From Sphaerochaeta pleomorpha str. Grapes (GTDB taxonomy: Bacteria > Spirochaetota > Spirochaetia > Sphaerochaetales > Sphaerochaetaceae), in contig NC_016633.1 of the NCBI RefSeq assembly GCF_000236685.1, positions 3,038,001 through 3,102,000 on the forward strand: DNA of 64,000 nucleotides, given 5' to 3'. Each line of letters begins with the position of its first letter. Within the stretch, counting starts at the first letter, position 1. A model generated the notes under the pieces. That model was not told the DNA's origin, made no database searches, and saw only the letters and a list, made by a program, of their open reading frames with translations. Positions 4,498-49,013 of this stretch are shown piece by piece. Position numbers and translations under genes: made by a program.

Positions 4498-4515
4498 GGG
4501 TTTACAACCAGCGCC

Positions 4516-4547
4516 AGGTGGGATTGATGTTTCAATCCCACCTTTTC
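4516..4547 (+). terminator. Stem-loop attenuator between dctP and dctQ
   Basis: A perfect 12-bp stem (4516-4527 with 4532-4543) around a TGTT loop, followed by TTTTC. It lies between the binding-protein and permease genes on the same strand, so it likely acts as a partial terminator and 3'-end stabiliser for dctP mRNA. Confidence 0.75.
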
Positions 4548-4566
4548 AATTCTCAGGAGATTAACC

Positions 4567-17684: not shown

Positions 17685-19709
17685 TCAGTCCCTTGAATCT
17701 CCTTCTTGCCCCCTGTGCTCGGAATAGCACTTTCGGCTGCAATATTTTCGGTTGGTGCCGTAGGTCACAAACGTCTCGCCACAGTTTTGACAAGTAACTT
17801 TGTTTGTAGCCCGTCCTTCGCCGGCTTTGAATTTTGCATACCGATTCCACCAATCCTGCCTGCAGCCGTCCGAGCAAAAAATCTTTTTCCTAAACCCGGG
17901 GGTATGCTCTAGCTCTTTTCCGCAAGTCTTGCAGAGCACATGCTCTCCATCTTCTTGTACAGCAGCCTCATTCCCCGAAGTTCTGGAAAGGCAGAAGCTG
18001 CGAACCTGTCCACGAGGAAGGTTCAGCTTTTCTCCGATCTTCGCATAAGACATTCCATCTCGCCGAAGACTGCTGATCTCAGTCATCTGTTTCTCTGTGA
18101 GAGGAGGGCGTTTCTTTTCCTCTTCGGATAAGTCAACCTTGATTTCAGATCCATCGCGGAAGATGAATCGGACATCATTTGGAGAATGCACCTTGAGATG
18201 ATCAACCAGTCCGCTCCATAGGTCCTCATCAAAACGCACGACCTGGCTATTCTGTTTCTTGAGATTATCGAAGAATGAAGTTGCAAGTGCTTTTTTGGCT
18301 ACCTTGTCCTGGATAGTATTGTCGAGCTCCTCTTTACGTTTCTCAGCCTGCTCATATCGTATCTGTAGTGCTTGATACTCTTGAGTATGGGTATATCCAT
18401 TGGATCTTGAGCTGGGTTGTCCGCTCGACATACGCTCCATGAGTTCGGCTGTAACACTCATGTCAGCTATGAGTGCCGTCCTTTCCCTTTCCAGACCAGC
18501 GGTATCGAAAACCGTATCGTAGACAAGTTTCTGTGTTTCAAGAATGCTGGATGAATCCTTCAGTAGTCTGTTGACTGCTACAACGAACATTCTCTGGACA
18601 TCCTGTTCTATCAAGTTGCCTGAGGTACATTGGGAGTGTGCCTTATCATATTTCCCATTGCATTGCCAAACCACTTTCTGATATTTGCTGTTTGGATGCC
18701 ATTTCTTCTCTCCAAACCAAGATCCGCACTGGGCACAGAGGATTCGTCCTGAAAGCATTCTCCGGCGGTTTCGTCTGCCAGGCATTCCATCGCGCCGTTT
18801 CATCTCGTTCTGGACTAGAGCAAACATTTCTTTGGATACGATCGGTTCATGATGGTCTTCCACATAGTACTGAGGTACCTCACCTTCGTTCACCTTCTGC
18901 TTGTGGGTAAGGAAATCTACGGTGAAGCTTTTTTGCAACAAGGCATCACCGATGTATTTTTCATTCTGCAGGATACTCTTTATGCAGGAGGAAACCCATT
19001 GTTTCCCACGTCCGGGTGAGGGGATGTTTTTCTCGGTGAGAATCTCGGCGATCCCATTCGGGCTCTTTCCCTGAAGGAACAGAGCGTAGATGAGTCTTAC
19101 CAATTCAGCTTGTTCCTCATTCACGACCATGTTTCCATCAGGCCCTTTGTCATACCCAAGGAAGTTGCTGTAGGGAACTGAAACCTTGCCATCCTTGGCT
19201 TGCTTTCGCTTACCCCATGTGGTGTTTTCGGAGATCGACCGGCTTTCTTCCTGTGCGATTGAGCTCATGATGGTTATCAATAATTCACCTTTTCCGTCGA
19301 AGGTCCAAATGTTTTCCTTCTCGAAGTAGCATTCTACATTCTTCTCCTTGAGCATGCGAATGGTGGTCAGGCTGTCTACAGTATTTCTGGCAAACCGGCT
19401 TACCGATTTTGTGACGATAAGATCGATCTCTCCCAATAAGGCGTCGTTTATCATCTGCTTGAAGCCTTCCCTGCGATTGGTGCTGGTCCCACTCACGCCT
19501 TCATCGGTATAAACCTTGATGAATTCCCAATCAGGACGACTCTTGATGAATTCGGTATAGTACTCGATCTGGGCTTCATAACTGGTGAATTGTTCATCAC
19601 TGTCAGTCGAAACCCGGGCATAGCCTGCGACCCTTCTTTTCGTTGAATGGGGGTTGTTGCGATTGTTTGTTATGATTTTCTTTGCTGGAATTATCCTTAC
19701 CTTTGCCAT
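17685..19709 (-). CDS. Large serine recombinase with C-terminal zinc-ribbon module
   Basis: 674 aa. The resolvase domain (about 25-170) has YARVSTDSDEQ with nucleophile Ser34, then DEGVSGTSTNRREGF and KSVSRFARN. The Recombinase domain (about 190-290) is followed by a zinc ribbon (CAQCGSWF…CNGKY…C) and a long coiled coil. From about residue 545 there is an extra module: a small helix-turn-helix (LTEKQMTEISSLRRDGMSYAKIGEKLNLP) and two zinc ribbons (CKTCGKELEHTPG…CSDGCRQDWWNRY; CQNCGETF…CSRKCY). That module is nearly the whole of the stand-alone proteins at 21213 and 22022. Such recombinases excise or integrate elements at short crossover sites. Its start overlaps the neighbouring recombinase gene by 13 bp. 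Confidence 0.93.
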   Translation of the reverse strand: MAKVRIIPAKKIITNNRNNPHSTKRRVAGYARVSTDSDEQFTSYEAQIEYYTEFIKSRPDWEFIKVYTDEGVSGTSTNRREGFKQMINDALLGEIDLIVTKSVSRFARNTVDSLTTIRMLKEKNVECYFEKENIWTFDGKGELLITIMSSIAQEESRSISENTTWGKRKQAKDGKVSVPYSNFLGYDKGPDGNMVVNEEQAELVRLIYALFLQGKSPNGIAEILTEKNIPSPGRGKQWVSSCIKSILQNEKYIGDALLQKSFTVDFLTHKQKVNEGEVPQYYVEDHHEPIVSKEMFALVQNEMKRRDGMPGRRNRRRMLSGRILCAQCGSWFGEKKWHPNSKYQKVVWQCNGKYDKAHSQCTSGNLIEQDVQRMFVVAVNRLLKDSSSILETQKLVYDTVFDTAGLERERTALIADMSVTAELMERMSSGQPSSRSNGYTHTQEYQALQIRYEQAEKRKEELDNTIQDKVAKKALATSFFDNLKKQNSQVVRFDEDLWSGLVDHLKVHSPNDVRFIFRDGSEIKVDLSEEEKKRPPLTEKQMTEISSLRRDGMSYAKIGEKLNLPRGQVRSFCLSRTSGNEAAVQEDGEHVLCKTCGKELEHTPGFRKKIFCSDGCRQDWWNRYAKFKAGEGRATNKVTCQNCGETFVTYGTNRKYCSRKCYSEHRGQEGDSRD

Positions 19710-21001
19710 GCATGCGCTCCGTTGTCATTGGTTTTTCTTCTTCTATCGATTGCTGCCTTATAGGCTTTTTCCCTGGAAGGCCAGAACCGGTTGATTTGCC
19801 GTCCATCACGAAAATGGAAGGTATATGAGCCCTCTCCATCACCGGAGATGTGATCGACCTCCTTGTAAAAGGCTTGCTCATCAAACTCGTCGATCCCCAA
19901 CATGAAATTGGACAGAATCTTCAACTGTTCCTCATTGATACCGATGCTCCTGCATCCTTTGATTCCATCTCTTCGGTTGGATTTGCATCTCCAATTCGCA
20001 TTGGTTGGTGTCTTGTAAGTCCGGATATAGTTGTTTCCGCATTTCTCGCAGATGATTTTACCGGTGAAACAACGCCGACTCACCTTCGGCATGTTGTACA
20101 CCCCGAGTTCTCTTCGACGGTCAATCTCTCTCGAGACGGCTTCGAATATTTCCCGCTTGATGATCGGTGGGTGCGTATCCTCGACATAGTACATGGGATG
20201 CTCCCCGCGATTCTTCTTCCGGGGCTGGGACATGAAATCCACGCAATACGTTTTCTGGAGCAAGGTATCACCGATATAACGCTCATTGTGTAGAATGGTA
20301 TGGATAGCCACATCATTGAAAGGTTTCCCAAAGTGTAGGATGGAACGATTGTTCAGTTCGTCTGCAATACGTTTCATCGACTTTCCCTTCAGATAATCCC
20401 TGAATATCTTTCTCACTACCTTTGCGGTCATCGGTTCAATGACGAGCTCCTTGCCGGTCCACCGGTATCCATAGACGCGGTGATGCAGGCTGATTCCCTT
20501 CTCGTAACGCTTTCTGACTCCCCACCTGAGGTTTTCAGAAGTACTTCTGCTTTCCTCTTGAGCAAATGATGCCAAGACGGTCAGAAGGAATTCTCCTGTA
20601 CTCGAGATTGTTTCAATATTTTCTTTCTCGAACCTGACATCGATGTTGAGTTCCTTCAACCGCCTTACAGTCTCAAGCAAGTCGACCGTGTTTCTGGCAA
20701 ATCGCGATATCGATTTCGTCAGCACAATATCAATCATGCCTTGCTCGCATTTGGTGATGAGTTCTTGGAATTGCGTTCTGCCAGATATCTGTGTTCCAGA
20801 GACGCCATCATCAATGTAGATCCCCTGGTATTCCCATTCAGGATTAGCTTGAATCAGTCTCTTGTAATGATCGACCTGGGATTCAAGCGAATGCTCTTGT
20901 CGTTCATGTACCGTAGAGACCCGTGCATAGGCTGCAACTCGCTTTTTTCGATTTTTGGTTGCCAGTTGCTTTGGTTTTTGTATCAGCTTAATTGTTCTCA
21001 C
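19697..21001 (-). CDS. Serine recombinase, TndX/Tn4451-like
   Basis: 434 aa with catalytic Ser29 in AAYARVSTVHERQ, DDGVSGTQISGRTQF and KSISRFARNTVDLLETV. The Recombinase domain shows VRKIFRDYLKGKSMKRIADELN. The zinc ribbon (ICEKCGNNYIRTYKT…WRCKSN) is intact. It starts at GTG 21001 after AGGAGG. It lacks the long coiled coil and the extra ribbon module of its downstream partner, so the two probably act as unlike subunits, as seen in other multi-recombinase elements. A promoter-like motif shared with two other genes lies just upstream. Confidence 0.93.
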   Translation of the reverse strand: MRTIKLIQKPKQLATKNRKKRVAAYARVSTVHERQEHSLESQVDHYKRLIQANPEWEYQGIYIDDGVSGTQISGRTQFQELITKCEQGMIDIVLTKSISRFARNTVDLLETVRRLKELNIDVRFEKENIETISSTGEFLLTVLASFAQEESRSTSENLRWGVRKRYEKGISLHHRVYGYRWTGKELVIEPMTAKVVRKIFRDYLKGKSMKRIADELNNRSILHFGKPFNDVAIHTILHNERYIGDTLLQKTYCVDFMSQPRKKNRGEHPMYYVEDTHPPIIKREIFEAVSREIDRRRELGVYNMPKVSRRCFTGKIICEKCGNNYIRTYKTPTNANWRCKSNRRDGIKGCRSIGINEEQLKILSNFMLGIDEFDEQAFYKEVDHISGDGEGSYTFHFRDGRQINRFWPSREKAYKAAIDRRRKTNDNGAHAWQR

Positions 21002-21054: not shown

Positions 21055-21216
21055 TCAAGGAGATAGATTGCCAATTATTGGCTGGTATCTAACAATGAGT
21101 TTTCCTTGGACAGTCTTGAATTCCTCGTCAGTCAACAGGTCCTGAGCAAACAGATTCTTGATGAGCAAAAGAGCCATCTGGTAATCGGCCTCTGCCTTGA
21201 ACTGCTCTTTTGTCAT
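21055..21216 (-). CDS. Small SHOCT-like protein of the recombinase module
   Basis: 53 aa: MTKEQFKAEADYQMALLLIK followed by NLFAQDLLTDEEFKTVQGKL and a polar tail. The pattern L-L-T-D-E-E-F resembles SHOCT-like small helical domains that accompany serine recombinases in Firmicute elements. I chose ATG 21216, which overlaps the upstream gene's stop (ATGA) and follows AAGGAAG; the longer frame from 21315 only reads the neighbour out of frame. Function unknown; a role as an accessory to recombination is inferred from synteny. Confidence 0.75.
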   Translation of the reverse strand: MTKEQFKAEADYQMALLLIKNLFAQDLLTDEEFKTVQGKLIVRYQPIIGNLSP

Positions 21217-21632
21217 TTGCTTACTTCCTTCTTGAACCTTGTTTTGATATAGCACTCGTGGCTGCAGTAACTGCGTTTGGCATTCCCATATGCCGAGAAT
21301 GATTTGCCGCAGCAAACGCAGGTGAATTGGTAGAAGGCCTTACGCTTCACCTGATCCTGATGGGCATTCCACCAGTCCATGCGACAGCCATCCGAGCAGT
21401 ACTGTTTCTTCCTTTTGCCGGGAGTATGCTCCAAACGTTTACCACAGGTCTTGCAATAATCTTTTCCCAGATCTTGAGGAACATGGCTAGGAGATCTCCT
21501 ACCCCTGAGATTGTGGGTTCTACAGAAGGACCGGACGCAATCCTTGGATAACCCGAGCCTTGATGCGATGGTGGTGTATCCCAGACCATCATTTCTCATT
21601 TCAGTGATTTGTGTAGTTTCTTTTTCAGTCAT
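21213..21632 (-). CDS. Stand-alone HTH/zinc-ribbon protein A
   Basis: 139 aa: an N-terminal helix-turn-helix (MTEKETTQITEMRNDGLGYT… LGLSKDCVRSFC) and two treble-clef-like zinc ribbons (CKTCGKRLEHTPGKRKKQYC…C; CVCCGKSFSAYGNAKRSYCSHEC). It is homologous along its whole length to the final ~130 residues of the 674-aa recombinase and to protein B at 22022. It probably binds DNA. Fused and free copies in one locus suggest it helps recombinases choose sites or direction; that is inference. Confidence 0.8.
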   Translation of the reverse strand: MTEKETTQITEMRNDGLGYTTIASRLGLSKDCVRSFCRTHNLRGRRSPSHVPQDLGKDYCKTCGKRLEHTPGKRKKQYCSDGCRMDWWNAHQDQVKRKAFYQFTCVCCGKSFSAYGNAKRSYCSHECYIKTRFKKEVSK

Positions 21633-21895
21633 TGTGTTCTCCTGCTTGATACCGGAGAACCGTACCCCTGAAGTTTTTTGAAGCCCCTGAATGGCAAGGG
21701 AACAAGAGAACTATCGTCAATCTTCTGCTCCAATCCTTATGGCTTACTCTGATGAACTACATTGGAGTAATCTGCAGGAATCATTGGGTTTTGAAATTTG
21801 AGGTTGAGAGCTGAATCAGCGATAATGAAGAGGATTCGTGAAATTGGGAGATGCTTAACAACTCTTACTTGGTATGGTAATTGCTGGGAGTAATT

Positions 21896-21924
21896 AAAAA
21901 GATTGGCCGGTAAAAACCGGCCAA
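21896..21924 (-). terminator. Terminator after zinc-ribbon gene B
   Basis: On the minus strand TTGGCCGG and CCGGCCAA form a perfect 8-bp stem around TTTTTA, followed by TCTTTTT. It ends the transcript of the gene at 22022-22438, making that gene a separate unit from protein A and the recombinases. Confidence 0.8.
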
Positions 21925-22021
21925 ACACGATTCCAAAGAATACTATTCCTTGGATAGTTTCAACAAAATCCCTAGCAACTGATTTAAGGTTCGTTTCCTT
22001 AATCGAAGTTTGGGACCCCTG

Positions 22022-22438
22022 CTACTTTTCCCTCTTGGAAAAACGAGCCTTGATATAGCAAGAATGGCTGCAGTAGACTCTTTTTGCATTTCCGTATGAG
22101 CTGAAGGTCTTACCACATTCGGCGCATGTGAACGAATAGTATGCTTTTCGCTTCACCTTGTCCTGATGCGCATTCCACCAATCCATACGACAAGCATCCG
22201 AGCAGTACTGTTTCTTTCTCTTTCCAGGAGTGTGCTGCAAGTATCTCCCACAAGTTCGGCAAGTGTTGTTACCCACTTCCTTATCCACATGCGAGGAGGA
22301 TCTCCTCCCCGTAAGTCCGTGAGTCCTGCAATAAGATTTTACGCATTCCTTTGGAAGCCCTATTTGGTTTGCAATCGTAGAATATCCAAAGCCACTTTCT
22401 CTCATGTTCGTAATCTGCGTTGATTGTTGATCAGTCAT
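22022..22438 (-). CDS. Stand-alone HTH/zinc-ribbon protein B (paralogue of A)
   Basis: 138 aa, clearly a duplicate of protein A: TQITNMRESGFGYSTIANQ, RTHGLTGRRSSSHV, CRTCGRYLQHTPGKRKKQYC and CAECGKTFSSYGNAKRVYC align without gaps. All zinc-ligand cysteines are kept. The N-terminal helix differs most, which could change DNA specificity. GAGGAGAAGG precedes the ATG. It has its own terminator and its own copy of the GTAGGRATGTATAGACC promoter-like motif. Confidence 0.8.
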   Translation of the reverse strand: MTDQQSTQITNMRESGFGYSTIANQIGLPKECVKSYCRTHGLTGRRSSSHVDKEVGNNTCRTCGRYLQHTPGKRKKQYCSDACRMDWWNAHQDKVKRKAYYSFTCAECGKTFSSYGNAKRVYCSHSCYIKARFSKREK

Positions 22439-37478: not shown

Positions 37479-38045
37479 CTATACTTGGATCTCCATCCCA
37501 TTCTTGAAAATAAACCGCACATCTTCTTTGCTGTAGATCACAGCATGATCGGCAAGGAAATACCAAAGGTGCTCGGTGAATTCGGTAACCACACCCTCCT
37601 GCTTCTTCAACCCTTGAGAAACAGTTCTGTTTTTGTCTTTCAAGACTTCCGTTCATGTATCGCGCCTTCCAAATTTGTCAGATGTTTGTTGACCTCGGTG
37701 TACTCGCTGCTAAGTTGTTTGAAACGGTCCTGATATGTGTGCTGGTCCATTGCTACATTGGCATTCTCGGTATTGAGTTTTTCCATGCGTGAGACAATTT
37801 CGCGACGTTCAACTCTCACCGCTTCCAGCTGTGCTTCATTTTGGGAAGTGTTGAAGATTTCTTCGGTTAGCTTCCCAAAGTTTCCTATGATTTCATCCTT
37901 ACGAGTGATGATACTGTTGACCGCTTTTACGAACATGTCTTGCAATGCATCCTCATACAAGTGTGGAGAGCTGCACTTGTGGTGACGATCAGCATATTTT
38001 TCATTGCACTGCCAGACAATCTTAATGAAATATTGGGAAGAGCTG
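37479..38045 (-). pseudogene. Frameshifted C-terminal remnant of a serine recombinase
   Basis: Minus-strand remnant of a recombinase like the one at 17685. Reading from about 38045 gives SQYFIKIVWQCNEKYADRH and HKCSSPHLYEDALQDMFVKAVNSI, the second half of the zinc ribbon, then the coiled coil (RVERREIVSRMEKLNTENANV). The frame breaks near 37640, but another frame continues with LKKQEGVVTEFTEHLWYFLA and YSKEDVRFIFKNGMEIQV to a stop at 37479, the usual recombinase ending. Catalytic and DNA-binding domains are missing. It marks the right side of the metal/stress island, next to the prophage. Confidence 0.8.
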
Positions 38046-38221
38046 TCCTCACAGTTAATACTATTGAAAAGATTGCAAACCAGATCAGTTCGCAGCAAAA
38101 GGTTCAAAACGATGATAGACATATAGATCTTTCTGAGTTTCCAACAGAGACGATTCTAGCAAAAGAGTAATTTACTTCATCCCTAAGAATATCGTCCCAA
38201 GCATTGGATATTCAATGCCGT

Positions 38222-39490
38222 TCATTGTTTGATACTCTGGATCCCATGCCGGTTCCCTTTCTCCATTGCTTCAACAGCCCAGTCGATCGGTTCCAATCCC
38301 TCAAGCCGGTTGTACTCGTCCCAGTACCGTCTGGCCCATTTGACCAGCAGCTTGGTTATCTCGCAGATGTAGGTCGTCCGCCTGAATTCGCCGAACTCCG
38401 AATAGCAACCTCCGATGCAGTATGAACAGGCACTCTCCACCTCGCAGGTCCTGCACTTTTCGTCGAGTGAGCAATTGGAGCGATAGGCGCCTTCGCGCAC
38501 TCTCAGAAAGTTCTCCTTGTGGGTAAACCCTTCCTTGGCAGTCCCGACGATGAACTCTGCCTTGTCGATTTGGGTATGCGGCAGCCATCTGATGCACGGA
38601 TAGATCCTACCGTCCACCGAGAGGGCAGGCATGGCTCCGCTTCCGCAGTGGCCGGTACAGTCCCAGTCAGGTCCTGTGGACAGGTGTGCGTAGCCGAATT
38701 GCTCCTTGCTGAGCATGCTCCAAAACAGATCGTCGCGATGCTCGAGTACATAGGCGGTGCACTTCTCCATCTGACGGTCCAACTCATCATAGTCGGTTTG
38801 TGTGCATCCGGTATCCTCCATGATGAAGTTCTGGTTGATGTACCGCAGTCCCAGCTGTTCATGCAAATACACCAGCGAGTCGTAAAGGTAGGGGATGCTC
38901 TGGCGGTTTGCGGTGGACTTTGTCTGCATCGACTGGATCGGGAAGGTCTTCTTATACCACGGCCAATGGCGGATGATGCTCTGCATCGAACCGGACCCAT
39001 CGGAGAACACCCGGTTTGCGTCATGGATCTCAGGACAGCCATCCAGCGATATGCCCACCAGCAAGAGGTCCTTGTATTTCTCGCAGAACCGCCTGGCCTG
39101 CTCGGAAAAGAGCGTGCCGTTGGTGGAAATGGAGAAATGAAGCTTGCCCCGCCAGTTTTTGGCATTGGGGGTATCGGTGGTCATCACCTTGGCCAGCGTG
39201 TAGGAGCAGATCTCATCCAAAAACGGCACATCCATGAAGCTGTCGCCACCGATGAAGTCCACAACCAACCCTTTCTGGTAGGCCTTGCGGAACACTGGAT
39301 CCGGATCATCGAGCAGCCCTGCAGGATCGGGATCGGTGAGGATGTGGCCGATGAATGCCTTCGCATCCTCCATCGAAAGCGTTCTTCTTCTCTTGTGCAC
39401 CTCATAGCAGTAGGTGCACCTGAGGTTGCAGTCTTCGGTGGTGTTCAGCGTCACGTTGAACAAGCCGGGTTCTCTAAAGGGAATGAGCAT
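38222..39490 (-). CDS. Radical SAM/SPASM enzyme, probable Cys-rich peptide maturase
   Basis: 422 aa from ATG 39490; the longer frame overlaps the previous gene. A radical SAM core binds [4Fe-4S] through Cys21, Cys25 and Cys28 (CNLRCTYCYE); a GG motif (FIGGDSFMD) and a Ser/Thr-rich STNGTLFS strand follow. The C-terminal third is a SPASM domain with auxiliary-cluster cysteines (CGSGAMPALSVDGRIYPC, then CSLDEKCRTCEVESAC and CIGGCYSEFG…C). This class includes sulfatase maturases and enzymes that crosslink Cys in RiPPs. Its start follows the Cys-rich gene's stop by one base (TGA-T-ATG), so that protein is the likely substrate; the reaction (thioether formation or other) is inferred. Confidence 0.9.
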   Translation of the reverse strand: MLIPFREPGLFNVTLNTTEDCNLRCTYCYEVHKRRRTLSMEDAKAFIGHILTDPDPAGLLDDPDPVFRKAYQKGLVVDFIGGDSFMDVPFLDEICSYTLAKVMTTDTPNAKNWRGKLHFSISTNGTLFSEQARRFCEKYKDLLLVGISLDGCPEIHDANRVFSDGSGSMQSIIRHWPWYKKTFPIQSMQTKSTANRQSIPYLYDSLVYLHEQLGLRYINQNFIMEDTGCTQTDYDELDRQMEKCTAYVLEHRDDLFWSMLSKEQFGYAHLSTGPDWDCTGHCGSGAMPALSVDGRIYPCIRWLPHTQIDKAEFIVGTAKEGFTHKENFLRVREGAYRSNCSLDEKCRTCEVESACSYCIGGCYSEFGEFRRTTYICEITKLLVKWARRYWDEYNRLEGLEPIDWAVEAMEKGNRHGIQSIKQ

Positions 39491-39491
39491 A

Positions 39492-40139
39492 TCAGCCTCC
39501 AATGCGGGATGAGTTCGAGCAACCGCTCGAGCAGGAATTCTTGCATGCACCCGAGCAGTTCACATTGCAACTGGCGTTGCAGTTGGTACTGCAGGAGGTA
39601 CAGCCCGAGCAGGCACTTTGGCAATTGCCGGTGCATCCACCACAGCCGCGACATCCTCCGCATCCGCTGCACCCATGGCACGAAACACACCACAGTCCCC
39701 CTTTACAGCTGTAGCAGTTGCCCGAACATCCGCTGCAGCCCGAACAACCGCTGCACCCGGTGCACGAACTGGTACATCCTCCGGTGCAATTGTGGCAGCC
39801 GTTGTAGCACGTCGAGGTACACGTATTGCTGCAATTGGCACAGCCGCGCAGATCATTGATGTCCTGTTTGTACTGGTCGATCTGGCTCAGCAGATTGGCG
39901 CTGATCAGGCTCCCCGTTGCAACCGATGAGATGGGGTAGGTGGTGTACAGAAGCGCGCGGGTATTACCCTGCAGAGCATCCTTCATCGAGTTCATATCCG
40001 AGGCTCTCATGGGAAGGCCGATGGCAAAGCCAGCAGGCGGGGAGAACACATAATAGTTGTCGTAGCGCTGGTAGCCGTTGACAAGGAAGGCCTCCTGGAT
40101 CGCCTCGAAGCGGCTTTTGATATCATTATAGGTTCCCAT
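39492..40139 (-). CDS. Cys-rich protein with ~95-residue head, candidate radical SAM substrate
   Basis: 215 aa. The first ~95 residues look like an ordinary folded domain (YNDIKSRFEAIQEAFLVNGY, YYVFSPPAGFAIGLPMRASD, LISANLLSQIDQYKQDINDL). The remainder is almost wholly Cys, Gly, Ser, Asn and Thr: I count about 31 Cys in the last ~115 residues, mostly spaced CxxC or CxxxC (GCSGCSGCSGC, CTGNCQSAC). ATG 40139 overlaps the upstream stop as TGATG, with AGGAG upstream; the GTG three bases earlier is less likely. No signal peptide. It is far larger than usual RiPP precursors, and lies directly after the tail fibre region. It may be a virion or tail-tip protein that is modified before assembly. Confidence 0.85.
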   Translation of the reverse strand: MGTYNDIKSRFEAIQEAFLVNGYQRYDNYYVFSPPAGFAIGLPMRASDMNSMKDALQGNTRALLYTTYPISSVATGSLISANLLSQIDQYKQDINDLRGCANCSNTCTSTCYNGCHNCTGGCTSSCTGCSGCSGCSGCSGNCYSCKGGLWCVSCHGCSGCGGCRGCGGCTGNCQSACSGCTSCSTNCNASCNVNCSGACKNSCSSGCSNSSRIGG

Positions 40140-40453
40140 CACGGCTCCTCATGGGCGAAGCACTCACCGTTGATCACCAGGAGCTCGCCCTCCGGGTAAT
40201 TGTAATGGCTACGGACGCGACGCTCCCAGGTGGCATACAGGAACCTGCCCTCCGCCATCTCGTCGAAGACAGCCTTGAAGTAGGCGTAGATGTCCCTGTC
40301 CTGCTCAAATCGGTAGGATGCGTACACCTCAGCCTTCAGGGCGGTCTGTGCGGTATTGATCTTATCGATCGCCAGTTGCATGTCGGCGATCTCACTGTCG
40401 TCCAAGATAAAGGGCAGCTTGGTCAGCTGCCGTCCACATTCATTGCATTGCAT
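40139..40453 (-). CDS. Small CxxC protein of the Cys-rich/radical SAM set
   Basis: 104 aa, starting at ATG 40453 after AGGAGG. It opens with MQCNECGRQL, one knuckle of a zinc ribbon, followed by helical polar sequence and an aromatic C-terminus (FLYATWERRVRSHYNYPEGELL). It is coupled to the Cys-rich gene by a TGATG overlap. It is not recognised; it could be a chaperone or partner for the Cys-rich protein, or a tail-fibre assembly factor. Confidence 0.7.
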   Translation of the reverse strand: MQCNECGRQLTKLPFILDDSEIADMQLAIDKINTAQTALKAEVYASYRFEQDRDIYAYFKAVFDEMAEGRFLYATWERRVRSHYNYPEGELLVINGECFAHEEP

Positions 40454-40464
40454 GGTTGTTCCTC

Positions 40465-43400
40465 CTAGTTCCATACAGCCCCCCACACCTTGTTGGCGGT
40501 GCCTTGTGTATTCACATTTCCCGTCACATTACCGGTGACGTTGCCACTCACATTCCCACTCACGCTCCCTTGCAGATTCCCATGGAACGTGTTCGCATGG
40601 ACATTCGCATATGGATTCGAGGACACGCCGATATCAAATTGGCTGGCTTGTTGGGGATACAGGGCCTTGGTATATGCTCCCTTCGCCTCGGCGATCACGG
40701 TGAAGGAGATCGAAAGGGCAGAGAACAGGTCGTTGCTGCGGATGCGAGAGGTAACTCCCCCGGCACCGGTGATCGTCAAACTGGTTCCCGACCAGCTTAC
40801 GATCGCAGGACTCGCCACAGGTCCTTCGATGCTGTTGTAGATGCGGCTCCAGGCAATGGCGATGCTTTGGAACATGTCGAAGGCCCCGGCAGCCACCTGG
40901 GTGCCAGCTTTGAAGATGCCTGCGAACTTGTAGTAGAACGAGCCTAGAGCTGCAGAAAGGTTGGTCCCGTCGAAGATGAACGTGCCGGCATAATAATCCT
41001 TTGCTGTGGTATGGCTGCTGATCTTTGCCCCCTGCCCATCCAGGAGGTTCACTCCCACATCATAGGCGCTGTAGTTGTAGGCTGCACTGAGTGTCCCGGC
41101 CGTATAGGAGGTGGGTGTTGCCTCACCCAGCGTTAGGGCACTGAGATACCCCGCGCTGTCGATGGCGTAGAACACCCGCTGTAGCGTGGTACCCGTCGAA
41201 ACGGGATTGGCTCCACTGGCGGCATAGACGGCAGCTCCCATTTTGGTGGGCGTGTAGCCCAGGGAGCGTTTGGACCAGATGGTTCCTCCGTTGCCCGAGA
41301 CATAGTAATACGCACTGCCGTATTCATAGGCGATGAAGAACCCGTTGCCCCAAGCTATGCTGCTGGGGCACGTGCTGGCGATATTGATTGCACTCCAGTT
41401 CATCCCGTCTGTGCTTCGATACACCGATGCTGATGAGAGGGTGACATAGCTTACCTGGATGTAGACGCCGTTTCCGTATGCGATTCGCGAGTTCATGAAA
41501 TCGTTATTGTAGGATGGGAATGGATGGGCACAGGTGAAACCTGCGGCTACCCATCCGCTTCCGTTGGTCGAGCGTTTCCAATCGGAGGCCCCTCCGCCAA
41601 GCACATGGGCGTAAAAGTATCCATTGGCGAAGAACAGGTTGTCGTAAGCCTCGCTGGACAGCTCGCTCCACGAAGTGCCGTTCGCTCCACCGGAGAGTAC
41701 CCGGCGTTGGACCGAGCCCGAGCAGATCGCCAGGAAGATACCATTGCCGAATGCCAGACCAATGGTGGAAGGATACGCAGTGCTCAGCGAATAGGATGAG
41801 ACCGAGCCCACGTTCCCGGTGGGAAATGATTTGAGCGTCGAGCCCCACGCGACTACCATCCTGCCGTTTCCCTCCGCCAAGTGAGGGGTTGATGAGGATG
41901 TCGAACTGATGCCAGATACTCGTCCGGTCGTACAGGCAGCCGGGTCATACAAAACGCCGCTGAGCACTTGGCGTACCTTGACCGTCTTGCCCGCAACCGT
42001 CGCATGGTCGAGGGTGCGGCTCTCGTAGTCGCTCCAGGTGCCCCCTCCATCGAGCGAGTACTGCTTCTTGCCTGCAACCTCAGCACCTGTGGAGGTGATT
42101 TTCGCAAGGTAGTTGACTCCTCCGAGCTTTAGTGGAGACTGGGTGTAAGCAGGCAGGGCAGGGACGGTGAAAGCGGTTCCCGCATTTGCCGTGGTGACCT
42201 GCTGGTTGAGCAGGCTGCGGTCCTGATCACGCTCGCCAGAAGAGGTGACATGCAACACGTTCTCGAAGACGGTGGATACAGAGCCACCTTCCACCTTGGT
42301 GGCCATGAACGAGCCGCCCTTGTGCACAACCGCGTTGGCTGCGACCAGGGCGATGAGGTCCCCCATCACCGTCCCCATGTCCCAATAGGGGGTGGAGGAC
42401 AACGAGCCGTTGAATGATTCGCCGGTACGTACCTCGTTGACGGTGCGCAGCACATCGGCATCAAGGCGCTCGATGCGGGTCTCCGAGAGATCGGCGTTGC
42501 GGATGACCGTACCGACGAACTCGCTGGTTCCGTCGCTGTTGATGATGAAGCCCGAGTTCCCATCCCCGATCGCATGCTTTCCCATCGAGCGGATGCGTCC
42601 GGTATCGATGATCTGCAGATCCTGTGTGGAGAGCACATCGATATTCGCCGACTGCGCATACAGGGTACGATAGTATGCGTACAGTGCGGTGGAGGTGACG
42701 GGAATATTCGCCCCACCGAGGAGCACCGCGTTGCCGCATTTGCTCATCGCCTCGGGATATTGGGCTGCGTTCTGGCTGGTGATGGGAATCCACGAACCGC
42801 TGGCGAACACCTGGGGAACGTAGTCGTCCCCCGTCTGCAGCACATAACAATCCCCTTCGATTGCATCGCTGATGGTCCCGGGACCTCCCAGGATCCCGTA
42901 GCTCCTGGTGTACTCGGTCACATCGTTGGCCGAGAGGGTGAGTGTGCGTATCATCGTCTCGGTACTACCCAGACGGGTATAAGACATCGTGCAGGTGATA
43001 TCGATCTGGGGTGGCGCCTGCTTCTTGGGGATGGTGAGTGTCAGCTCTCCTCCCGCATAGGATTCGGCATTGATCAGCCATTGGAAGGTAGCGTTCTCGT
43101 ACCCCCGGCTATCGGCAGTGAGGACCACGACCGAATTTTCCACGCTGCGTACATTGCGCTCATAGGTGCTTCGGTTGCTTTTGATGGAAAACGAGATCGA
43201 ATTGCGCAGCAGGGTGTTCGCCCCGACATCCAAAAAAGGTTCTGCGTAGGTGATATGGGGTTCTTGGGGAGTGGAGTCGCTCCACACCTGTTTGACGCGC
43301 GTCCAGTACTCATAACCGTAATACCAAGGGCCGGGCAAGCTTTCGCTCCACTGTGTAGCGGCCCCCGGAGATAACCCTTCTTCAAGAAGCGCGAACTGGT

Positions 43401-43782
43401 GGATCGGGGTGACACTGAGCCCATCGGATCCCGCCTCCCCGTCAGAGCCCGCCTCTCCGGTCTCACCATAGGAGACGAATGAGGTGGCCAGCAGCTCGGT
43501 CTTGGACGAATCGGTGTAGATCTGCACATCGAAGGCACCCGCCGAGCTGTAGCTGTACGAGCGAACTCCACCTGTCATGGTCCCGCTTGCACCGCTTTGG
43601 GCCCAGCTGCTGCCGTCCCAGCTGCGTGCATGCACGTATACCGAGGGTGTGTACAGCGACCCGTTCTTGTAGAAAGCCAGATCCAAAATCCCTGAGGAGG
43701 CAGAAGACATCGTCAGCTGCAGTTGGTACGAGGGAGCATCGCTGAGGGATGTGAGGGTATAGCTTGCGCCGGTTAGTGCCAT
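40465..43782 (-). CDS. Phage tail fibre / host-recognition protein
   Basis: 1105 aa. β-rich N-terminus, a short collagen-like patch (GETGEAGSDGEAGSDG, about 107-122), Ig-like material to about 300, then a region resembling siphovirus tail tip proteins (GGANIPVTSTALYAYYRTLYAQSANIDVLSTQDLQI … GFIINSDGTSEFVGTVIRNADLSETRIERLDADVL). About 600-900 holds propeller-like repeats (AFGNGIFLAICSGS, FFANGYFYAHV, AYGNGVYIQVSY, AWGNGFFIAYEYGS). The C-terminus has tandem GNVxGNVx repeats ending KVWGAVWN, common in fibre tips. It very probably contacts the host surface. Confidence 0.85.
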   Translation of the reverse strand: MALTGASYTLTSLSDAPSYQLQLTMSSASSGILDLAFYKNGSLYTPSVYVHARSWDGSSWAQSGASGTMTGGVRSYSYSSAGAFDVQIYTDSSKTELLATSFVSYGETGEAGSDGEAGSDGLSVTPIHQFALLEEGLSPGAATQWSESLPGPWYYGYEYWTRVKQVWSDSTPQEPHITYAEPFLDVGANTLLRNSISFSIKSNRSTYERNVRSVENSVVVLTADSRGYENATFQWLINAESYAGGELTLTIPKKQAPPQIDITCTMSYTRLGSTETMIRTLTLSANDVTEYTRSYGILGGPGTISDAIEGDCYVLQTGDDYVPQVFASGSWIPITSQNAAQYPEAMSKCGNAVLLGGANIPVTSTALYAYYRTLYAQSANIDVLSTQDLQIIDTGRIRSMGKHAIGDGNSGFIINSDGTSEFVGTVIRNADLSETRIERLDADVLRTVNEVRTGESFNGSLSSTPYWDMGTVMGDLIALVAANAVVHKGGSFMATKVEGGSVSTVFENVLHVTSSGERDQDRSLLNQQVTTANAGTAFTVPALPAYTQSPLKLGGVNYLAKITSTGAEVAGKKQYSLDGGGTWSDYESRTLDHATVAGKTVKVRQVLSGVLYDPAACTTGRVSGISSTSSSTPHLAEGNGRMVVAWGSTLKSFPTGNVGSVSSYSLSTAYPSTIGLAFGNGIFLAICSGSVQRRVLSGGANGTSWSELSSEAYDNLFFANGYFYAHVLGGGASDWKRSTNGSGWVAAGFTCAHPFPSYNNDFMNSRIAYGNGVYIQVSYVTLSSASVYRSTDGMNWSAINIASTCPSSIAWGNGFFIAYEYGSAYYYVSGNGGTIWSKRSLGYTPTKMGAAVYAASGANPVSTGTTLQRVFYAIDSAGYLSALTLGEATPTSYTAGTLSAAYNYSAYDVGVNLLDGQGAKISSHTTAKDYYAGTFIFDGTNLSAALGSFYYKFAGIFKAGTQVAAGAFDMFQSIAIAWSRIYNSIEGPVASPAIVSWSGTSLTITGAGGVTSRIRSNDLFSALSISFTVIAEAKGAYTKALYPQQASQFDIGVSSNPYANVHANTFHGNLQGSVSGNVSGNVTGNVTGNVNTQGTANKVWGAVWN

Positions 43783-43797: not shown

Positions 43798-44844
43798 TCA
43801 GCTGACAGAACAGAAATAGGTGGCCTTGATCAACACGTCGTCGTGCGAGACGGATATTGCCTTCTTCTTGGTGGTGACGATCGAGCCATGGGCAACCGCC
43901 GTGGGGGTGAACGCCACCGCTGTTCCGTCCTTGTCGGTCTTGGTCCAGCTGTAGGTGAGGCTCACCCCGGTCCCGTCGATCTCCTCGCCGTTCTGATACA
44001 CACGGCAGATGAGGGTGGTGCTTCCCGTGTCGTTCTTGAAATAGCTTCCCGCGGTGGACTCGATGACCGCCTGGTAGGGATCGGTGACGTCCAGGATCGA
44101 AACGGCCTCGGTGTCGTAGCTGATGTTGAAAGTGTCGGAAGTGGCGTCGGTGTCCAGAATTGAGCACTTGAACATGGCAAACGAATCCACCATGGAAGGA
44201 GTGACAGCCAAGGTGGCCGCAGTTGCTCCTGCGATATTTTCCCAGACGGTCCCGTTGATCGATTTTTTCCACTGGTAGTCGAGGTTTGTCGTGTCCTTGG
44301 TGGTACCGCGGATGAGCTCGGCCTTGAGCGACAGGGAGGAGGGGCTGTGGTTCTTGAACTGGCTGCCTCCGGTGGCGTAAGCCCGGGCGACCACGAATGA
44401 GGTGCCGTTGGCCACCCGCGAGAGGGTGATGGCGACCGTCACGGGAAAGGCGAGGTTCAGAACCGGGTCGGTGTAGGTGCCGCTGAATTGGTAGTCGATC
44501 TGCCACACATCGGTCGTGAGCTTGTCCTCACTCACCGTGAGTACCCCGCTGGTGGCATTGATTGTTTCACCGTTGGAACCGCTGGTGACCGTAGTCCAGG
44601 TGGCAGAACCCGCGATGCGGCGCTTCCAGGTCTTGGCTGTCATGGTAGAAACGACATCGGTCCCTCCGGCCTTGCGCACCACGGGGGTGAGCTGCAGCGA
44701 GGTGTCTCCTGCCCACGAGGGGTTGAGGGTCTGGTTCGATGTATCGTACAGGCTGGTGAGGGGCAGATTGCTGTCGATACCGGTGATGAGGGAAATACCG
44801 TCGGTATAATCCATCAGCGTGAAACTGGCGCTTGTCTTTGCCAT
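43798..44844 (-). CDS. Tail protein with Ig-like domains
   Basis: 348 aa, all β-type sequence, no signal peptide or membrane helix. At least three Ig-like repeats can be seen; strands with W and C patterns recur (DYQWKKSINGTVWENI, LTYSWTKTDKDGTAVAF). The last ~90 residues parallel the end of the tail hub protein at 44857 (…TLICRVYQNGEEI… versus …TLTCHVHKNTTEI…), indicating a shared decorating module. It probably decorates the tail tip or baseplate, where Ig-like domains are common. Confidence 0.7.
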   Translation of the reverse strand: MAKTSASFTLMDYTDGISLITGIDSNLPLTSLYDTSNQTLNPSWAGDTSLQLTPVVRKAGGTDVVSTMTAKTWKRRIAGSATWTTVTSGSNGETINATSGVLTVSEDKLTTDVWQIDYQFSGTYTDPVLNLAFPVTVAITLSRVANGTSFVVARAYATGGSQFKNHSPSSLSLKAELIRGTTKDTTNLDYQWKKSINGTVWENIAGATAATLAVTPSMVDSFAMFKCSILDTDATSDTFNISYDTEAVSILDVTDPYQAVIESTAGSYFKNDTGSTTLICRVYQNGEEIDGTGVSLTYSWTKTDKDGTAVAFTPTAVAHGSIVTTKKKAISVSHDDVLIKATYFCSVS

Positions 44845-44856
44845 TGTATGTGCTCC

Positions 44857-46662
44857 TTATGCTTCGTAGCCGGTCAGGTCGATCTCACAGAAGAAGACCG
44901 TACGCCCGACGCAGTCTGCGTTTTTGATTTCGACACTCTTATGGGCGATTGCCTTTGATGAGGTGTTCCACCGCCCGTCATCGATCGGGTCGGCACTGAG
45001 GCGCTTCCACCGAAAGCGCGAGGCATCCAGCTCTTCGGTGATCTCGGTGGTGTTTTTGTGGACGTGGCAGGTGAGGATCGTATCGACCTGCTCGGGCCGG
45101 AAGATCGAGCCGTTGGACGACTGGATGGATACGGTGTACGACGATCCGTCCACCCCCGGTGGCCCCGGGGATCCGACGGTGTCGTTCTTGCCCCTGTCGA
45201 GTACCTGAAGGTAGGCTGGGGCACTCAGGTCGAATGCCGAGATGCCCACCGCCTCGTAGCGGTACACCGCACTCTCATCGGTGAAGGTGCGTGCGGTCAC
45301 CAGGACTGAAACATTCAGGCCGCTGAAGGCATCGTCGATCAGGCGTACCAGGGTGCCGCAATTCAAGTCGACGGCCGAGAAGAATGTGTACTGGCTGCCA
45401 GCATGGCGGTGGAACTGGCCCAGGAGGTTCGCATGTTCTTGGGCCAGGGTTCGCTCGTGTACGAACACCAGCTCCTCGGAAAGCAAATTGTCCGAATTTT
45501 CACCTTCGTAGACGCTGTCGGCTGTCCTGACGATGTTCGTGTCACGCACATAGATGATATCGGCATAGGCATCGAGTCTGGTGATGTGGTAGGCCAGCGT
45601 CCCGTTGTTGTGCGCCGCCACCTGCAGGTACGGACCGCCTGCAGCAGCGATGTTGGCGGTGATGTAGCCGCTTTCGGCGGTGAACTCGGTGCGCACGTTC
45701 GAGACGGCGATGATGTCGCTCGATCCCACGATATCGATCTCACTAGCGGCGTTGCAGGCTTCGATGAGGGCTAGAGTGCGGAAGCTGTCCGTCTGGGCTT
45801 CGGTCCACTCTCCTTGGGTATAGATTTCACTGCCGTCGAAGTGCGCACCACCTTCCAGCTTGAGGTAACAATACGGGTGCCCATCCCCTCTTTCTGTGGT
45901 ATTGCGGTACACCAGATAGTCGCCTGCCGTCCCTAAACGGGTAAATGAAACCCGCGCACTCTTGTACTGGCGGATCTTCTTGGAAAGCGTGATCGCCTTG
46001 CCTCCCACCACAACCAAGTCGTCCTTATCGAGGGTGGGAAGGTTCTCAGTGGAAGTGCAGTCCACCTTGAAGAGCCTGAGGTGTCCCAGTGCATCAAAGA
46101 AATACACATGACCCAGTTCATACACCAATTGGTCCAACAGCTCGCCGCAGGTGACCGATCCATCCACGCTTCGGGTGACCGGTGCAGTGAGGGAAATGCA
46201 ATCTGGTGATACGGTGATACCCGCTCTTGTGCAGATAGAGGCGATCGCCTCGCTGGCTGTGCAGTTGAATAGGTGCCGTCCACTTTCGATGAAAGCCTTT
46301 CCCAACAACCGGGTGCCGGTGTCCTCGATAGTGATCGCCAGCGCTTGCTTTCCGCTGTCGGTGAGCATCCAGTTGTAGCTGGTGGACAGGTATCCGGTGA
46401 ACACGGTTCCTGCCCCATCGGCGAGGATGGCTTTCACATCGCCTTCGGTGGCGATGATATCCTCGATTGCAGGGCAAGCCTTATCCAAGAGCAGATCAAC
46501 CTGATTCGAAGCGCTTTTCAAGCCGGACAGCAGCTGCTGGTGGAAGGTGATCGACCTGCGTGCGATATGCTGTTCGCCGATCGTCTGTACCAAGGAGTGT
46601 CCCTCCTCGAGGTCGCCTCCCAGGAAGGTGAGGGTGAGAGAGGGGCTGTGTATGATGCTCAT
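44857..46662 (-). CDS. Phage tail hub / tail-associated protein
   Basis: 601 aa, the first gene after the tape measure. The N-terminal ~200 residues resemble the gp27-like hub of siphovirus tails (QTIGEQHIARRSITFHQQ, VFTGYLSTSYNWMLTDSGKQALAITIEDTGTRLLGK, ASICTRAGITVSPD). After about residue 495 comes a GSPGPPG hinge and an Ig-like module matching that of the following protein. Such hubs connect tape measure, tube and fibres. No lysozyme motif was seen in it. Assignment rests on position plus overall style. Confidence 0.7.
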   Translation of the reverse strand: MSIIHSPSLTLTFLGGDLEEGHSLVQTIGEQHIARRSITFHQQLLSGLKSASNQVDLLLDKACPAIEDIIATEGDVKAILADGAGTVFTGYLSTSYNWMLTDSGKQALAITIEDTGTRLLGKAFIESGRHLFNCTASEAIASICTRAGITVSPDCISLTAPVTRSVDGSVTCGELLDQLVYELGHVYFFDALGHLRLFKVDCTSTENLPTLDKDDLVVVGGKAITLSKKIRQYKSARVSFTRLGTAGDYLVYRNTTERGDGHPYCYLKLEGGAHFDGSEIYTQGEWTEAQTDSFRTLALIEACNAASEIDIVGSSDIIAVSNVRTEFTAESGYITANIAAAGGPYLQVAAHNNGTLAYHITRLDAYADIIYVRDTNIVRTADSVYEGENSDNLLSEELVFVHERTLAQEHANLLGQFHRHAGSQYTFFSAVDLNCGTLVRLIDDAFSGLNVSVLVTARTFTDESAVYRYEAVGISAFDLSAPAYLQVLDRGKNDTVGSPGPPGVDGSSYTVSIQSSNGSIFRPEQVDTILTCHVHKNTTEITEELDASRFRWKRLSADPIDDGRWNTSSKAIAHKSVEIKNADCVGRTVFFCEIDLTGYEA

Positions 46663-48987
46663 CTAGGTTGTCACTCCGTAGTAATCCAGCCGCTCGAACT
46701 CGCCTCGGATCATCCGGGCGAAGGCGCGCATCCCGTCGCTGCCTACAACCGGTGCCTGCTGGTAGATGTTGATGGTCACTTGCGTCGCTCCCTGATACCC
46801 TGCGTTTCCCACTGCCGTGGTGGTGGAGACCGCGTCGGTTGCCACGCTCCCCTGGTCTGCGATCGCATCGATGTTCGCCAGGCGATCAGCAAGGCCGCTG
46901 AAGGCGTCGCTGGAAAAGGATCCGGGACTGGATGCATAGCTTTTCTTTCTGAACGGGTGCACCAGGTTGTAGGCCGCGGTGGCAATCACGGACCCGAGGT
47001 ACTGCACCCAGCTTCCGAGCCACGACAACAGGTCCGCGACGTACTGCAGTGGGCTCATGAGGATCGTGAACGCCTTGGCCACCAACAGCAGGATGGGTGA
47101 GAATGCCATCATGATGCCGCTGATGACCTGGAAGACCGGGGCAAGGCTTTGCAATACAGGGGTAAGGACCGCCATGAGGATGTTTCCCACCAAGGCGAAG
47201 GCTGTGTGCAGCACATCCAAGACCGGCAGGAACAGACTTGCCAAGGTGGTCCCGATCCAGGTGAAAGTGTCCACCAGTGGCTGGAACACCGCCGTGAGCG
47301 CCGGCTCCATCACCGATACGAACCCCTGGAGGATGGTGAGCAGGATGCCCAAGGGAGAGAGGGTATTGAAGATGATGTCGAGGATCGGCTGCAACGTTGA
47401 TATGATCGCGGTAACCCCTCCCAGCATCTCGGTGGCCACCATGCCCATAAGGCCTCCGCTTACGTCCCCGAACAGGCCGGTGAACACACTGGTCAATCCG
47501 TCAGAGAGCATCGAGGCGATCTGAGAGCCCATGCGTGTGTCGGTCTGCTTGGTGTTATCGGCTGTCTCAGCTGTAGAGGCTGCCGTGCCCTCACCACTGG
47601 AGGCGATCTGGGAAAGCAGCTTGGTCTGATTCGCCGCATCAGCCTTCTGGGCGATCGCCTCAAGGTCAGGTGCGACAATCTCATCGAGTGCAGTCTTGAA
47701 ATCAAGGCCGATATCGCCGTACAGGGAAGAGACCATGTCGGCACTATTGAGCACGACCGTCTGGGCGGTATCGATCGCATCGGTGAGCGCATCACGCAAC
47801 AGCGGTCCCAGATTCTCAAAGCTCTGGTCGGCTTGCTGCTTGTAGAAGGTCGCCTCATCCTTGCTTTCAGCGGCTCCCATATCAAGGTTTGCCAGCTTGT
47901 CACCCAGGCCGAAGATCTTTCCCACCCAGGTGCCCTGGATCTTGTCCCCCGCCTTGTTGATCGCATTCTGGAATGCCCCCAGGATCGCACTTTCGATGTT
48001 CAGCGCGATGTAGGTGACCCAGCTGATGATGCCCACCACTGCATTGCCCAGCAGCTTGGGAATGCTTTCGAACACCGCCTTGAGCATGGCACTGATGACG
48101 ATGCCGATATTCTGGGCTGTGGTGGTGATGATCAGCTTGAGCGAATCCCACTCGAATGTGCGCTTGAGCAACTCCCACACGGTGGAAAGCGTCAGCTTGA
48201 AAGCTTGGGGCAGGTTCTTCATCACCGCCCCTACGTAGTTGATGAGAGCAGTGAGGTTGGTCTTGATGCCGCTGAAAGCTACATCGAGGTTACCCAACCA
48301 CGGACCGAAGTTGTAATCGATGATGCCGCCCACCTGCTGGCGGATGTCGCCCCAGGTGTTCTTCATGTTCGTCAGGTGTTGGGCGGTATCCCCATCGGCC
48401 ATCATCGCCGAGTACTCTCCGAGCTTGTCGATCACCTTGTCGACCGCCGCTCCGTGTGCGAGCTCGTCCTTGGTGAGGCCATCGAGCTCGATGCCGAGCT
48501 TTCTCAGCTCCCCGGTGGCCCCGGTGTAAGAATCCAGCAGGTTCATCATCGAGCCGTTGAGGTCCTTGCCCGTCACGTTGGACAGGTACACTGCAGCCTC
48601 GGAGATGCTTTCAATTTCGTCGGCACTCTTGCCCAGGGCGGCCAGCTGGGCGACCATGGATTCGATATCGCCCTTGCCAGAGAGTGTCTGGCTGCTCAGC
48701 CGCTCGACCACGGCAGTAACCTTCTCATACGAGGTGCTGTCGCCCAGTGCGAGGGCGAGTTGCTTGTAGGATCGTTCGGCAGCGGAGAACTCGGAGAATG
48801 TTGAGCTCACCGCGCTTCCCAAAGCCTTCACTGAAGCGATGATCGCGGTGGCGGCGAAGGCGCCTTTAAGCACTCCACCCAGTTTGGTTGCAGCACCCTT
48901 GAGGCTTCCCAGGTCGGCTGCAGCTGATTTGACAGCCCCTCCGATGTCGTTCTGGCCTTTGATGATGACTTTCGCTTGTGCTGCCAT
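46663..48987 (-). CDS. Tail tape measure protein
   Basis: 774 aa from ATG 48987 (GGGGAAAG upstream); the frame starting at 49008 has no ribosome-binding site. The N-terminal part is helical and Ala/Gly-rich (AKVIIKGQNDIGGAVKSAAADLGSLKGAATKLGGVLKG), with a PhageMin_Tail-like block (about 75-190). A long hydrophobic middle has several membrane-like helices (about 510-690), typical of tape measures that line the tail and enter the host membrane. Its length should set tail length. It follows the frameshifted tail chaperone, as expected. Confidence 0.9.
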   Translation of the reverse strand: MAAQAKVIIKGQNDIGGAVKSAAADLGSLKGAATKLGGVLKGAFAATAIIASVKALGSAVSSTFSEFSAAERSYKQLALALGDSTSYEKVTAVVERLSSQTLSGKGDIESMVAQLAALGKSADEIESISEAAVYLSNVTGKDLNGSMMNLLDSYTGATGELRKLGIELDGLTKDELAHGAAVDKVIDKLGEYSAMMADGDTAQHLTNMKNTWGDIRQQVGGIIDYNFGPWLGNLDVAFSGIKTNLTALINYVGAVMKNLPQAFKLTLSTVWELLKRTFEWDSLKLIITTTAQNIGIVISAMLKAVFESIPKLLGNAVVGIISWVTYIALNIESAILGAFQNAINKAGDKIQGTWVGKIFGLGDKLANLDMGAAESKDEATFYKQQADQSFENLGPLLRDALTDAIDTAQTVVLNSADMVSSLYGDIGLDFKTALDEIVAPDLEAIAQKADAANQTKLLSQIASSGEGTAASTAETADNTKQTDTRMGSQIASMLSDGLTSVFTGLFGDVSGGLMGMVATEMLGGVTAIISTLQPILDIIFNTLSPLGILLTILQGFVSVMEPALTAVFQPLVDTFTWIGTTLASLFLPVLDVLHTAFALVGNILMAVLTPVLQSLAPVFQVISGIMMAFSPILLLVAKAFTILMSPLQYVADLLSWLGSWVQYLGSVIATAAYNLVHPFRKKSYASSPGSFSSDAFSGLADRLANIDAIADQGSVATDAVSTTTAVGNAGYQGATQVTINIYQQAPVVGSDGMRAFARMIRGEFERLDYYGVTT

Positions 48988-49013
48988 ACTCGCTTTCCCC
49001 TTATGCAATGTAA

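Follow-up and report, generated by a model that had tools for sequence, protein, structure and literature searches.

A cysteine-rich protein paired with a radical SAM/SPASM enzyme in the tail module of a Sphaerochaeta prophage: a candidate cross-linked tail appendage

A gene in the analyzed stretch of the Sphaerochaeta pleomorpha str. Grapes genome (the window; 64,000 nucleotides, NC_016633.1 positions 3,038,001 to 3,102,000) encodes a protein with a Cys-free head and a tail made up largely of Cys, Gly, Ser, Asn, and Thr. It stands at the end of a prophage, directly followed by a gene for a radical SAM/SPASM enzyme, which raises the question of what such a chain is for and what the enzyme does to it. 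The best reading of the locus, held with moderate confidence, is a tail-appendage protein whose companion radical SAM enzyme cross-links its Cys-rich end. What is directly observed is the gene set, the conservation of its members, and how often they occur together in different phages. The leading alternatives would make the protein a secreted peptide or a tip that binds metal.

Prophage setting and sequence of the Cys-rich protein

The prophage lies on the minus strand with terminase, portal, and capsid genes followed by the tail genes and the cassette placed last. Its siphovirus tail module closes with three genes encoding, in order, a small helical protein, the Cys-rich protein, and a radical SAM/SPASM maturase. 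The features are as follows, by window coordinate.

38222..39490, minus strand, radical SAM/SPASM maturase, 422 amino acids, ATG 1 nucleotide past the Cys-gene stop
38363..38659, minus strand, SPASM-type Cys region of the maturase, residues 278-376 (C..G-X4-C and CX2CX5CX2CX3C ... C)
39407..39430, minus strand, radical SAM CX3CX2C motif, CNLRCTYC, residues 21-28
39492..40139, minus strand, Cys-rich protein (putative tail appendage), 215 amino acids, ATG at 40139, alternative GTG at 40142
39519..39842, minus strand, Cys-rich region from first to last Cys, residues 100-207, 31 Cys, CxxC/CxxxC
39843..40139, minus strand, Cys-free head, residues 1-99, three helix-turn motifs, aligned by hhalign to the heads of S74-bearing fibers
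40139..40453, minus strand, small accessory protein, 104 amino acids, CxxC start followed by a helical hairpin
40465..43782, minus strand, large protein of 1105 amino acids directly upstream of the cassette, presumed from its position to be a tail fiber
43798..44844, minus strand, tail protein phrog_3267 (PHROG match)
44857..46662, minus strand, tail-fiber-like gene of the tail module
46663..49008, minus strand, tape-measure-like gene of the tail module

The Cys-rich gene shares its strand with the terminase, portal, capsid, tape-measure-like, and tail genes and is on this basis assigned to the tail module. The stop codon of the small-protein gene and the Cys-gene ATG overlap as TGATG, and a GGAGG sequence spans the Cys-gene stop, 1 nucleotide before the maturase ATG; the overlap, the 1-nucleotide gap, and the GGAGG together suggest balanced co-expression of the cassette. 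The 1105-amino acid protein has no family match with a usable E-value in NCBIfam, Pfam, or PHROG.

The prophage cassette is patchily distributed among hosts; the enzyme is carried by 9 of 100 genomes of the family. A relative in the same genus, matched with partial query coverage, has two in-frame stops (G067:C2:784368-785024), so decayed copies of the enzyme exist. At the edge of the prophage a 160-amino acid fragment (37640-38122) looks like an integrase C-terminus; either it marks the attachment end, or the prophage has perhaps decayed in part. Outside the prophage, a lower-GC segment (17685-21001) holds two adjoining large genes that look by eye like serine recombinases, and two related proteins of 138-139 amino acids (21213-22438) adjoin this pair.

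The first-pass annotation described a precursor of unusual design with a head of ~95 residues lacking Cys and a CxxC/CxxxC tail of ~115. The two parts are confirmed as a 99-amino acid head with no Cys and a 116-amino acid tail containing all 31 Cys (residues 100-207), and the term precursor fits a gene followed immediately by a maturase. Starting at the GTG one codon before the ATG gives a 216-amino acid form; after residue 100 of this form the composition is C31 S23 G23 N12 T9 plus 17 others, ~85% C/G/S/N/T. The Cys-to-Cys steps are +3 in 15 cases (CxxC), +4 in 14 cases (CxxxC), and +6 once. A tblastn search with the Cys-rich protein against the phage collection returned no matches.

Selection was measured on 8 distinct nucleotide sequences (the window and 7 relatives from viral contigs and Sphaerochaeta-type MAGs; 28 pairs). 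The dN/dS ratio is 0.024 for the tail compared with 0.108 for the head, the tail being the most conserved part, and that of the enzyme is 0.044, computed on a set that includes duplicates. Third codon positions account for 78 of the 92 variable tail sites in the 8 sequences, all 31 Cys are unchanged and protein length is constant in 8/8, and 19 of the 31 Cys codons vary synonymously (nine sequences, two identical). Chance or a low-complexity artifact is ruled out by the dN/dS, the third-position bias, and the invariant Cys. The tail frame is thus strongly conserved, and the pattern is not what a flexible linker or a newly expanded repeat would produce, in agreement with the earlier view that the tail is not a simple recent expansion. 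In the same 8 sequences four of the five alternative tail frames have dN/dS of 1.4-9.4, and the fifth, an antisense frame using the same wobble position, has 0.089. An antisense ORF of 446 amino acids (38519-39859) was rejected as a true gene because dN/dS is lowest in the Cys frame, which the wobble-sharing antisense frame merely follows. Rapid variation in tail length between related phages, which the annotation had proposed to look for, is not seen within the clade, where all 8 lengths are equal. Elsewhere length does differ, widely among distant phages and by one 8-residue unit gained or lost between the near-identical phages L081 and L082.

The head was also proposed to be a structural phage protein. 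The profile comparison by hhalign aligns the window head group (A4) to a head group of S74-bearing fibers (A7) with 81% probability over 80 columns, the negative controls giving 0.4% and 0.2%; the likeness to gut-phage heads is weak, with 33% probability over 20 columns only. This likeness, together with the Cys runs fused to fibers in other phages described below, lends support to a structural protein; the AlphaFold monomer of the head has a mean pLDDT of only 48. The head has no Pfam or PHROG match, its sequence profile finds just two weak matches in the PDB (E 0.33 and 0.78), and no non-virion family, such as a host regulator, is matched among NCBIfam, Pfam, PHROG, and PDB profiles.

The paired enzyme and the small accessory protein

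PF04055 (Radical_SAM) matches the enzyme above its cut-off, with the cluster motif CNLRCTYC, and the SPASM-type cysteines are present as C282-X11-G-X4-C299, CX2CX5CX2CX3C at 346-362, and C376. The best NCBIfam model is TIGR04115 (CXXX-repeat peptide maturase), which aligns over nearly the full length with 228 bits against a cut-off of 350; this cut-off is exceeded in none of 149 genomes of the phylum. The PapB ranthipeptide maturase model follows with 129 bits (cut-off 340), then nif11, SCIFF (74 bits, cut-off 425), CcpM, and QhpD (TIGR03906, 67 bits), all far under their cut-offs. All six of the top models describe maturases that act on Cys-rich or thioether substrates, a chemistry covered in part by PMC8326336. 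PADLOC yields just weak viperin-like matches to the radical SAM core, and a role as a defense gene was set aside.

By sequence, the top PDB match is the CteB structure 5wgg. The alignment begins at 5wgg residue 100, and the window enzyme has its radical SAM motif from residue 21 onward, leaving no space for an N-terminal recognition domain (RRE).

SPASM enzymes perform several chemistries, and the enzymes of the lake-phage group are short (207-299 amino acids) with no recognizable SPASM motif, so that their chemistry may differ and more than one chemistry is possible. These points, and the dominance of Asn, Thr, and Tyr in some of the repeats, are what favors a virion protein carrying another radical SAM modification (epimerization, a C-C cyclophane, or oxidation) with the Cys forming disulfides after release. 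The six best NCBIfam matches, all to maturases of Cys-rich or thioether substrates, point away from this account, which is the least probable of those considered. In one related enzyme (L005, 5410-7455) an in-frame insert of ~170 residues lies inside the CX3CX2C motif and ends in an intein-like VHN ahead of a Cys; Pfam identifies no intein there, and the insert would begin with Asp.

A member of the small-protein family is found directly upstream of the Cys-rich gene in 17/17 untruncated loci of the window subgroup (window included). AlphaFold predicts a helical hairpin with a mean pLDDT of 89. Foldseek finds nothing at E 0.001 in PDB and BFVD, a second structure comparison gives generic helical hairpins only (best Z 9.2), and neither Pfam nor NCBIfam gives a match at E 0.1, curated RRE (PqqD-like) families included. 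In several phages a CxxC pair opens the protein. With an enzyme that has no recognition domain of its own, a presenting role for the small protein is plausible. Other subgroups have different small proteins adjoining the Cys-rich gene and enzyme or lying between them. Separately, an acidic protein of 124-134 amino acids with a DDYEKF motif conserved near its end is encoded in loci L058-L080 (~8783-9216) and sits between the radical SAM and fiber genes in 8/8 lake-type loci examined.

Recurrence of the pairing and its links to fibers

Related loci were fetched by enzyme patterns and not by Cys content, with seven more (L099-L105) hand-picked from phage records, and were screened for same-strand ORFs of at least 80 amino acids having at least 10 Cys per 60 amino acids within 4 kb of the enzyme. 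The count of 94 loci leaves out the window, L001-L011 (mostly duplicates or the window's own copy; L005 is distinct), L106, and L107 onward. A Cys-rich ORF is present within 4 kb in 78 of the 94 radical SAM loci. When the enzymes, mostly from phages, are clustered at 85% identity, 45 of 55 clusters have a Cys-rich neighbor, or 44 of 55 (Salmonella phage SPN3US among them) after removal of L090, whose Cys-rich ORF was dropped as a spurious GC-rich frame; the remaining 11 clusters have no true Cys-rich neighbor inside 4 kb, several of these misses being contig ends. The density of Cys-rich ORFs is 92 per 684 kb within 4 kb of the enzyme compared with 4 per 549 kb beyond it, a difference of ~18-fold.

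The Cys regions of distant phages span 27-377 residues with 12-92 Cys, and the spacing depends on the lineage (predominantly 4; 3 together with 4; 5; or 2). This variation bears on the idea in the first-pass annotation of a metal-loaded tip, in which the Cys run would bind Zn, Fe, or Fe-S clusters in the virion. Such an account, with a tip that might imitate or make use of receptors for metal uptake or be stiffened by its metal, and an enzyme acting otherwise or preparing the site, is improbable. A Cys content of 29% in a CxxC/CxxxC arrangement would suit metal binding, as would the CxxC pair opening the small protein in several phages. The near-constant pairing with a radical SAM enzyme and the free variation of Cys number and spacing among lineages count against this account; together they fit enzymatic cross-linking better than a single cluster geometry.

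Several further loci differ in arrangement. L005 has no Cys-rich neighbor, but a Cys-rich stretch occurs ~70 kb from the enzyme in the same record (G248); it is very long, lies at 194108-195457 with 50 pattern matches, and reaches the contig end. At 224-3806 of L072, three adjoining ORFs with 35, 35, and 57 Cys in CxCNSRT repeats lie more than 4 kb from the radical SAM gene. In the large phages of L016, L017, and L023 the cassette is beside glycosyltransferase-like or other genes and not obvious tail genes. Campylobacter phage CP220 (L106), which has no match to the enzyme query and is not among the 94 loci, has several radical SAM genes in a 30.8-kb region and no Cys-rich gene by the same screen, and Campylobacter phages were accordingly dropped as additional examples. 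The CP220/CPt10 paper gives 11 and 12 radical SAM proteins, respectively, of unclear role.

The connection to fibers is seen in 7 of 16 hand-picked Cys-rich proteins in which Pfam places Peptidase_S74 (PF13884) directly after the Cys run. L043 is a recognizable tail fiber (phrog_2631, 2.7e-32) with a C-terminal Cys run, the tail-fiber-like protein of L044 likewise ends in one, and S74-less relatives (L060, L057, and L080) terminate at the same point. S74 chaperones cleave themselves off trimeric fibers; if this occurs here, the Cys run would be the very end of the mature fiber.

In cultivated phages (Cronobacter phage CR5, Erwinia phage Asesino, and Salmonella phage SPN3US), a pair of Cys-rich ORFs is flanked by a virion structural gene on one side and two radical SAM genes on the other (3/3 regions examined). 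The Cys-rich genes of SPN3US and CR5 are absent from public annotation or given there in the wrong frame: of the two SPN3US ORFs (L105, 5070-5462 and 5473-5877), the first lacks a CDS and the second is overlain by gp166 in a different frame, and in CR5 (L099, 4127-4932) a minus-strand CDS is annotated at 4362-4574 opposite the Cys-rich ORFs. Just upstream of the SPN3US Cys-rich ORFs is gp168, described in PMC5105663 as a tail protein like phiKZ gp131 at the baseplate periphery. The main texts of two SPN3US papers, PMC5105663 among them, make no mention of gp163-gp167.

These fiber fusions and S74 chaperone domains among the relatives weigh against the Cys-rich protein being a secreted modified peptide, that is, a phage-borne RiPP precursor that kills competitors, signals, or excludes phages and is not part of the virion. 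The head of ~99 residues is also unlike a leader, and nothing next to the window cassette looks like a transporter or leader peptidase. Although the enzyme-substrate logic is that of ranthipeptides and sactipeptides, and L102 couples a Cys-rich region with a twin-arginine-like leader next to a related enzyme, the secreted peptide is an unlikely reading for the window. The L102 protein (2222-2746, in a 6.8-kb record called phage) is possibly bacterial and a secreted counterpart, its leader indicating that similar Cys-rich proteins can be secreted peptides.

Proposed cross-linking and comparison with known systems

In the favored reading, that of a cross-linked tail appendage, the ~99-residue head would probably assemble the protein into or onto the tail-tip or fiber complex, a role put forward tentatively. 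There is strong reason to regard the ~108-residue Cys/Gly/Ser/Asn/Thr end as what the radical SAM/SPASM enzyme of the next gene downstream probably acts on. By analogy with its families, the enzyme most likely forms thioether staples between neighboring residues and the sulfur atoms of many of the 31 Cys. Ahead of virion assembly, stapling would give a flexible low-complexity chain the form of a stiff rod or tip that resists proteases, and the evidence for a location in the virion is moderate. The small helical protein may present the substrate to the enzyme or keep it unfolded, again a tentative assignment. The same pairing in many unrelated phages points to viruses stapling sections of their tails by chemical means. 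Whether many tailed phages (spirochete prophages and lake, gut, and jumbo phages) build radical-SAM-stapled tail or fiber tips with up to ~90 Cys per chain is evenly balanced.

If this is correct, it would represent a new class of virion-protein maturation in which radical chemistry hardens viral surface parts, a low-complexity chain becoming a rigid, protease-proof spike. Many radical SAM genes of phages, at present labeled auxiliary or hypothetical, would then have a function. The cultivated phages SPN3US, CR5, and Asesino carry the gene set, making the idea testable now, and the enzymes are a possible source of catalysts for multiply cross-linked proteins.

This kind of enzyme is already known. 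Searches of an open-access full-text library, with few subscription papers or preprints, gave no account of such an enzyme acting on tail appendages of phages or accompanying their Cys-rich tail proteins. Phage radical SAM genes are treated as metabolic in one paper and as variable cassettes in another (PMC2853527 and PMC7029224).

The TIGR04115 maturases of CXXX-repeat peptides provide the best model for the enzyme and have, by family name, a Cys-repeat partner. The window enzyme is below the cut-off of this family, and its partner is a phage tail-module protein of ~215 amino acids with a conserved head and an accessory protein. The ranthipeptide systems (SCIFF/CteB, PapB, and freyrasin) are similar in pairing a radical SAM/SPASM enzyme with a Cys-rich substrate, 5wgg being the best PDB match. 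In a clear difference with these, the window enzyme has no N-terminal recognition domain, and the substrate is much longer, is placed among tail genes, and has a tail almost free of Asp and Glu. The S74 (PF13884) fibers resemble the window protein in the Cys run preceding S74 in seven proteins and in the alignment of the window head to their heads, whereas the window protein has no S74. Ordinary S74 fibers are not known to have a Cys run or a dedicated radical SAM enzyme.

The Cys-rich proteins of SPN3US-type jumbo phages (phrog_6085, function unknown) are likewise encoded near a baseplate or fiber gene and radical SAM genes; they differ in a shorter head (about 46-49 amino acids), in having two Cys genes and two radical SAM genes, and in being partly unannotated. 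QhpD, the radical SAM enzyme that cross-links a subunit of quinohemoprotein amine dehydrogenase (PMC8326336), shares with the proposed system a working protein subunit, not a secreted peptide, as its target. The QhpD target is a subunit of a cellular enzyme with few cross-links, compared with a putative viral appendage containing dozens of Cys.
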